Part shown: one piece after another, positions 11,138-11,573 of the stretch | Layout: every line of letters begins with the position of its first letter | Position numbering within the stretch: the stretch's first letter is position 1 | Assembly (NCBI GenBank): GCA_021769035.1 | Contig: JAETTP010000007.1 | Span: 1-60,247, forward strand | Direction of reading: 5' to 3' | From: Bacillota bacterium | Lineage (GTDB): Bacteria > Bacillota > Dehalobacteriia > UBA4068 > UBA4997 | DNA: 60,247 nt | Position numbers and translations under genes: made by a program | Notes under the pieces: generated by a model | Told to the model about the DNA's origin: nothing | Database searches by the model: none | Seen by the model: only the letters and a program-made list of their open reading frames with translations

Positions 11138-11293
11138 GTGAGTACCGGTATAGTTGGCGGCGCTGATGGGCCTACAGTGATTTTTGTGACCGGTTCATTG
11201 TCTGGCAGTTTGTTGCTGCTGGGCGGCGGCCTGTTGCTGCTGGCGTTGGTCGGCGGTTTGCTGTTTTCTGCGGTTAAACGACATAACGATTGA
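11138..11293 (+). CDS. 51-residue micropeptide with OadB-like GGADGPT motif
   Basis: GTG at 11138 with AAGGAAG upstream opens a 51-codon frame. The N-terminus reads STGIVGGADGPTVIFV, closely matching the [10 protein letters not shown] segment of the beta subunit of sodium-translocating decarboxylases (OadB/GcdB), whose aspartate is essential for Na+ transport in Klebsiella OadB. Here it is followed by a single hydrophobic segment and a basic tail (VKRHND). Full-length beta subunits exceed 350 residues, so this is a stand-alone element, not a degraded gene by any visible remnant. It starts 16 bases after guaB. Function unknown; Na+ binding is speculative. Confidence 0.7.
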   Translation: MSTGIVGGADGPTVIFVTGSLSGSLLLLGGGLLLLALVGGLLFSAVKRHND

Positions 11294-11310
11294 GCAGGGG
11301 GCTGGTTAAT

Positions 11311-11412
11311 ATGGTGATGACTTTTTTTCTTTGGTTGCCATGTTTTGCTTTGGGCCTGGCTCTGCTGATTGGCAGCGTGGTATATGCGGTTATGAGGCAT
11401 AAAGACGACTGA
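11311..11412 (+). CDS. 33-residue single-TM micropeptide
   Basis: ATG at 11311, 17 bases after the preceding micropeptide stop, opens 33 codons ending VMRHKDD. It has one hydrophobic segment (residues about 3-27) and ends in the same type of basic/acidic tail as its neighbour (KRHND versus MRHKDD). The ribosome site is GCAGGGGG at 11294-11302, roughly 8-10 bases before the start. It was found by reading between larger genes; the spacing, tail similarity and co-direction support it. Function unknown. Confidence 0.55.
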   Translation: MVMTFFLWLPCFALGLALLIGSVVYAVMRHKDD

Positions 11413-11426
11413 GGGGGGTAATTTTT

Positions 11427-11573
11427 ATGGGAATGACAGACGCGCAATTTAAGAACCACATTAGATTTTTGTTGATGGCCCTAAAGGATATGAACGAGCA
11501 AACAGATCCTGAAAAGAAACAGGCCAAGTTTGATGAGATTGTTGACGCATTGCAGAAAACCTTGGAAGATTAA
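11427..11573 (+). CDS. 48-residue soluble helical protein
   Basis: ATG at 11427 follows GAGGGGGG and opens 48 codons: an amphipathic helical protein beginning MGMTDAQFKNHIRFLLMAL and ending in an acidic helix (QKTLED). Small Clostridia proteins with a TDxQF start and this size are common and uncharacterised. It is the last gene before the terminator at 11580. No membrane segment. It may act with the two micropeptides before it, but only the arrangement suggests so. Confidence 0.7.
   Translation: MGMTDAQFKNHIRFLLMALKDMNEQTDPEKKQAKFDEIVDALQKTLED

Follow-up and report, generated by a model that had tools for sequence, protein, structure and literature searches.

The beta subunits of Na+-translocating decarboxylases (OadB, GcdB and MmdB) are proteins of about 400 residues with 10 transmembrane (TM) helices and two hairpins; the pumps also have small subunits, OadG gamma and Mmd epsilon, which are short, single-TM proteins with a basic or flexible tail. 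Elsewhere, LPXTG, PEP-CTERM and similar sequences act as portable sorting or recognition tags. The Na+ site of OadB requires Asp203 of hairpin H1, Ser382 of hairpin H2 and Asn412; Asp203 pairs with Ser382 to bind Na+, and substitution of either residue (D203A or S382A) abolishes binding (PMC7274780). Here we describe a micropeptide gene located downstream of guaB in a 60,247-nucleotide stretch of DNA from a Bacillota bacterium (the window), together with the tag that it carries, a copy of ~17 residues of the OadB H1 hairpin tip with the core GGADGPT, which is found on unrelated Bacillota proteins.

The locus downstream of guaB

The gene for IMP dehydrogenase, guaB (9652-11121), lies on the forward strand, as do the three ORFs and the terminator-like hairpin described below, and three genes of 51, 33 and 48 codons had been placed directly behind it in an earlier note on this DNA; their coordinates and the end of guaB at 11121 were confirmed. 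ORF1 (11138-11293) starts with GTG, is preceded by AAGGAAGTG and encodes the 51-residue protein MSTGIVGGADGPTVIFVTGSLSGSLLLLGGGLLLLALVGGLLFSAVKRHND, in which the tag segment is followed by one TM helix and the basic tail KRHND. ORF2 (11311-11412) starts with ATG, in a frame that the open-reading-frame listing allows to be extended upstream to a TTG at 11290, and encodes a 33-residue single-TM micropeptide whose tail, RHKDD, does resemble that of ORF1 as had been claimed. ORF3 (11427-11573) encodes a soluble protein of 48 residues. The guaB unit is closed by a terminator-like hairpin at 11579-11609 (folding of 11570-11630 gave -22.3 kcal/mol, z -5.3), which was not among the terminators from the consensus scan. 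Next come an S10-Clostridia ribosomal leader (Rfam match; 11739-11829) and rpsJ; given this leader, the S10 operon has its own regulated start beyond the guaB unit. In Caproiciproducens (L376:8897-9181) and Amazonia (L377:8354-8599) a tag gene likewise lies just 5' of the S10 operon, and both have a GAADGPT-type decarboxylase beta gene a few genes from the tag gene.

Compared with its copy in the closest relative (G006), ORF1 has 11 codons that differ synonymously and 3 that differ in the amino acid, against an expected synonymous fraction of 0.30 (P=2e-4), which shows ORF1 to be a real gene under purifying selection. The corresponding counts for ORF2 were 4 and 9 (P=0.34, not significant), and its translation is less well supported than that of ORF1. 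G006, G001 and G007 all have guaB, ORF1 and ORF2 in this order; in G008 guaB-ORF1 is kept and ORF2 does not lie 3' of ORF1, and in G002, G003 and G004 both ORF1 and ORF2 are absent after guaB. Two of the five guaB-linked copies of ORF1 have a damaged motif, with GGADGQT in G001 and a one-base insertion, possibly an assembly error, in G007.

Only in the window does ORF3 come after guaB; in four relatives it is missing there. Because its sole close relative, a paralogue of 42% identity encoded elsewhere in this genome (L249:1498-1644), adjoins an XRE/S24-like repressor (L249:1662-2273), as in prophages, we judged ORF3 to be a probable prophage-type small protein that landed in the guaB unit, and treated it as unrelated. 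The idea that the three peptides act as a trio or complex finds no support, ORF3 being unlinked in the relatives, and a single ORF1-ORF2-ORF3 unit is ruled out by the missing conserved co-occurrence.

ORF1 carries a segment like the tip of OadB hairpin H1

Residues 2-26 of ORF1 align with positions 114-138 of the Pfam OAD_beta model (PF03977) with E=5e-5 and 22.9 bits, short of the family cut-off of 31.6 bits; against TIGR01109 the score was 21.6 bits, where the cut-off of 190.6 is likewise not reached. Residues 3-26 align to residues 196-219 of solved OadB (PDB 6iva, 6iww), which form the tip of helical hairpin H1 (PMC7274780). Both alignments support the tag segment STGIVGGADGPTVIFVT (ORF1 residues 2-18; 11141-11191), whose core GGADGPT (11156-11176) is identical to that of H1; in the alignment to 6iva, Asp10 of ORF1 takes the place of Asp203. 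Missing from ORF1, with its 51 residues and a single TM helix predicted by hydropathy at residues 25-43 (11210-11266), are H2 with Ser382, Asn412 and the multi-TM core (features as given in PMC7274780). Alignments and hydropathy bear out the view that ORF1 has the ion-site segment of OadB by itself on a single-TM peptide.

The window genome has its own OadB elsewhere, as a 404-residue frame on contig C82. ORF1 is also like OadG gamma and Mmd epsilon in its short length, single TM helix and basic tail; however, ORF1, ORF2 and ORF3 have no Pfam or NCBIfam match to such families, and it is the beta subunit that ORF1 resembles.

Spread of the tag

A collection of 84,980 species was scanned with a DNA pattern that requires a start-like codon (RTG) five residues ahead of the core. 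The scan returned 114 stretches, which a YSY test divided into 34 OadB and 80 others; after inspection by eye, with L128 recognized as an OadB piece at the edge of a contig, and L180 as a chance match, there were 78 non-OadB carriers, 35 OadB and 1 chance match. By their record names 77 of the 78 carriers come from Bacillota or Clostridia-type groups (the exception, L166, is named only 'bacterium'), taxa having been read by eye and three strain- or species-only names placed in such groups from general knowledge. Removal of identical proteins left 76 carriers: 27 micropeptides, 16 proteins of 67-115 residues and 33 longer ones. In 15 genomes chosen as tag-bearing, the DNA pattern for (I/V)GGADGPT matched 33 times and its reversed control 0 times; this control, together with the synonymous excess, rules out chance or low complexity as the origin of the motif.

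Thirty micropeptides aligned from fetched loci consist of the tag, one TM helix and a basic C-terminal tail, an arrangement that ORF1 fits; their shared GGADGPT is partly the result of selection, since the pattern with which 25 of the 30 were found requires it. Most carriers were found with the GGADGPT-fixing pattern, so invariance among them is no evidence and the profile searches are the fairer sample. A pattern-free profile search of 398 genomes gave some match in 213. Short frames (48-118 residues) were listed for the window, for three congeners and for another seven places; apart from that of G001, all of them keep GGADGPT. Short proteins with the motif were thus found across Bacillota when sought, and the motif was present in homologous small ORFs when its absence was looked for, which leaves this part of the original claim in place. 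Of 14 genomes of the window's phylum with a stand-alone tag, 12 had an OadB-size frame listed; the other two (G060, G230) had a second match.

The tag profile also matched 91 of 100 Lachnospiraceae genomes (the family of G425), most via OadB, and placed more than 25 tags in frames that are not OadB-sized, a sample of which was read; G460 alone holds three non-OadB tag places. Motif variants in the profile-search sample were GGADGQT, GGANGPT, GGGDGPT, GGSDGPT, GGVNGPT and GGADGPI. When the full 349-position OAD_beta profile was applied to 70 unselected Lachnospiraceae, 12 of the 13 sub-cut-off fragments spanned the H1 segment, and the thirteenth (G525) has stop codons. Only the H1 segment of OadB is portable. 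Eleven of these H1 fragments were fetched, nine with GGADGPT, one with GGGDGPT and one with GGANGPT. GAADGPT occurred on none of them and on none of the stand-alone carriers fetched, although it marks a common second decarboxylase type: many tag genomes have such an OAD_beta protein (e.g. L255, L259, L278, L288, L315), and 27 of 75 fetched OAD_beta loci failed the GG-type filter, six of the seven inspected being GAADGPT (in the seventh, L307, the chosen frame was not the protein).

We rejected the idea that the tag came from phages or plasmids. Among 50,697 phage records none matched the soluble carrier L238, and a 24-residue tag query found three plasmid records, two annotated as beta subunit and one without annotation, although some carriers do lie on IMG/VR contigs and L241 adjoins two large serine-recombinase-like ORFs. 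A double-glycine leader, a rhomboid site and an arrest peptide were also considered and set aside.

Carrier families

Pfam identified M56 proteins (BlaR1; tag just past the last TM helix), HAAS-2TM, rhodanese and XRE-2TM proteins among the carriers. Inspection of the sequences added PlsY, an ICMT-like family, lipoproteins and proteins in which a signal peptide directly precedes the tag, as well as soluble families of ~220 and ~510 residues and one SGNH-type fusion. This range shows the carriers to be unrelated. On membrane carriers the tag usually adjoins a TM helix or begins the secreted part; soluble carriers include L108, L185, L219, L238 and the 510-residue family. The first four belong with L239, L356, L366 and L372 to a soluble family of ~220-250 residues that has its tag at the N-terminus and contains basic helices. 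The ~510-residue family (YFCTPKGA..GVDGIH; L089, L090, L106, L129, L136, L148, L216, L220, L244) has the tag near its C-terminus; L220 has an SGNH-hydrolase-like N-terminus, and a search for the fold of the family gave no PDB match at E<=0.001.

Tag flanks not fixed by the pattern resembled each other more closely than the remaining sequence did in 12/15 HAAS pairs, 20/21 pairs of the soluble 220-residue family and 7/10 M56 pairs, and in only 11/36 pairs of the 510-residue family and 0/3 of PlsY. Over the 17 tag codons, 8 of which encode residues set by the search pattern, L086 and L155 differ by 8 synonymous and 0 non-synonymous changes, and L083 and L127 by 5 and 0. L359 and L364 have a degenerate second copy ahead of the intact tag in the same protein (IIGGTDSAT... 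and IIGGADEPA..., respectively), reminiscent of tandem duplication. Across 82 loci no specific partner gene recurs near the tags, the largest neighbour cluster (11 loci) being ABC-transporter ATPases, and a dedicated processing enzyme was not found next to the tag.

Tag flanks and the local OadB

At 12 variable positions, identity between the tag and the GG-type OadB of the same genome was 0.527, compared with 0.425 after permutation (p=5e-5, n=47); within clades the match gave p=0.09. A serine two residues before the core Ile is found in 15/18 genomes with Lachnospiraceae-type OadB and 1/29 others, a serine after the core in the tags of 16/18 and 9/29, respectively, and Ala-Gly later in the tag in 16/18 and 3/29. 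These differences show that the tag flanks follow the clade's own OadB. Since the match is seen only between clades, local descent from OadB explains it without any interaction; the tags thus either derive from the local OadB or track it, which is no proof of interaction. OAD_beta was detected above the cut-off in 47/50 tag genomes (3 lacking) and 62/70 unselected Lachnospiraceae, the family of Hungatella hathewayi (8 lacking); the two sets being alike, co-occurrence says nothing and was dropped as proof of a link. Three of the eight unselected genomes lacking OAD_beta bear tags (G481, G498, G504).

The match to the local OadB is what one might expect if the micropeptide inserted into the beta-gamma decarboxylase complex or competed in its assembly, as are the OadB-size frames listed for 12/14 stand-alone-tag genomes of the window's phylum (against any match in 213/398). 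Such a regulatory role is nevertheless improbable: tags are present in genomes without OadB, PlsY, rhodanese, SGNH-fused and soluble carriers would be senseless as pump subunits, and tag genes were not found near OadB genes apart from the GAADGPT-type gene in Caproiciproducens and Amazonia.

Alternatively, fragments copied by recombination could be tolerated in linkers as functionless residue of OadB. Repeated local copying would be expected to yield a clade-level match of this kind, and decayed copies are seen in G001 and G007 and beside the intact tags of L359 and L364. Nevertheless, ORF1 and other pairs such as L086/L155 and L083/L127 keep their amino acids while synonymous sites change freely, and the H1 segment alone is found, with no other OadB parts; we therefore give this explanation only a small chance.

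Shape and membrane side of the tag

AlphaFold2, run with 30 sequences, predicts a beta-hairpin formed by residues 2-6 and 14-18 of ORF1, followed by a helix at 23-50; pLDDT is about 69-76 in the motif and reaches 84-95 along most of the helix. The motif had been described in the earlier note as a stand-alone copy of a re-entrant loop: stand-alone it is, but in place of a re-entrant helical hairpin the model has a beta-hairpin and then a TM helix. Lys and Arg are more numerous after the TM helix than before it in 30/30 micropeptides (2 vs 0 in the window), from which the N-terminus with the tag is predicted to lie outside and the basic tail inside. In the 2-TM carriers charge gives no clear orientation (11/21), and the spacing from core to TM2 is 15-24 residues in 20/21. 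Domain logic, drawing in part on the generally known topologies of HAAS, XRE and M56 carriers, agrees with a tag that would lie outside (HAAS and XRE domains inside; the M56 sensor part outside; the signal peptides). In a 510-residue carrier the tag sits within a loop modelled at pLDDT<50 (residues 428-473), and such a low-confidence loop is as expected of a displayed peptide.

Both the modelled beta-hairpin and the regular tag-to-TM spacing (20/21 2-TM carriers) would suit hydrophobic tag hairpins that pair mutually and so let membrane proteins form homotypic oligomers, but mutual pairing leaves the likeness to OadB unexplained and we consider it very improbable. We view in the same light the proposed membrane ion-site module, in which a re-entrant GGADGPT loop, by itself or in an oligomer, would bind Na+ within the membrane and serve as part of a sensor or channel: its Asp is the equivalent of the Na+-coordinating Asp203 of OadB (PMC7274780) and several carriers are sensor-like (M56, HAAS, XRE), but only the H1 tip is present, the partners Ser382 and Asn412 are missing, soluble proteins carry the same segment, Asn replaces Asp in L222 (GGANGPT) and L368 (GGVNGPT), and the modelled shape is a beta-hairpin and not a helical one.

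Discussion

Tentatively, and without calling it probable, we read the tag as a displayed binding epitope that mimics OadB, and not as an ion site. ORF1, probably cotranscribed with guaB, encodes a small membrane protein, the N-terminus of which bears a portable copy of the OadB H1-hairpin tip; this segment also occurs on many unrelated Bacillota proteins. By imitating H1, the tag might engage something that recognises that shape, be it a partner, a regulator or an antagonist of OadB, and this is the weakest step of the proposal. The epitope reading is weakened by the occurrence of tags without OadB, by the soluble carriers, since a single extracytoplasmic partner cannot serve all, and by the lack of a partner gene recurring near tags. 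The motif damage in 2/5 guaB-linked copies and the flanks of the 510-residue family and PlsY, which are no more conserved than the rest, also count against it.

A wider claim, which we hold to be somewhat unlikely, is that in Bacillota, and in gut Clostridia most of all, the Na+-site hairpin tip was copied time and again from the organism's own OadB to membrane, secreted and soluble proteins unrelated to it. This would have given rise to a portable, self-mimicking tag, acting as decoy or docking epitope and evolving in the OadB dialect of each clade, and to a previously undescribed kind of intragenomic molecular mimicry.

Like LPXTG and PEP-CTERM tags, the OadB-like tag is a short, near-invariant segment on unrelated proteins near membranes. 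It differs from them in being usually N-terminal or juxtamembrane and not C-terminal, in numbering one or two per genome, in that no dedicated enzyme was found alongside it and in being derived from a transporter hairpin. Among the Pfam and NCBIfam hits of 13 proteins tested, no model of such a tag turned up besides those of OAD_beta type. In open-access PMC literature, a body of text that leaves most subscription journals and figures outside its scope, no mention of GGADGPT or IGGADG was found, and nothing in the small-protein, OAD_beta and mimicry literature was recognised as relevant. Taken together, a portable segment on unrelated proteins suggests an undescribed protein tag.

As a single micropeptide, ORF1 is a modest finding; the portable segment is the surprise, as one would not expect to meet the ion-binding hairpin of a transporter on dozens of unrelated proteins, as a free and portable module of 17 residues. 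In practical terms, the motif alone can draw unrelated proteins into sub-threshold OAD_beta matches, and it supplies a concrete peptide for pull-downs. If the tag is indeed a decoy or docking epitope, it would point to something that partners or antagonises the sodium pumps supplying many gut anaerobes with energy.
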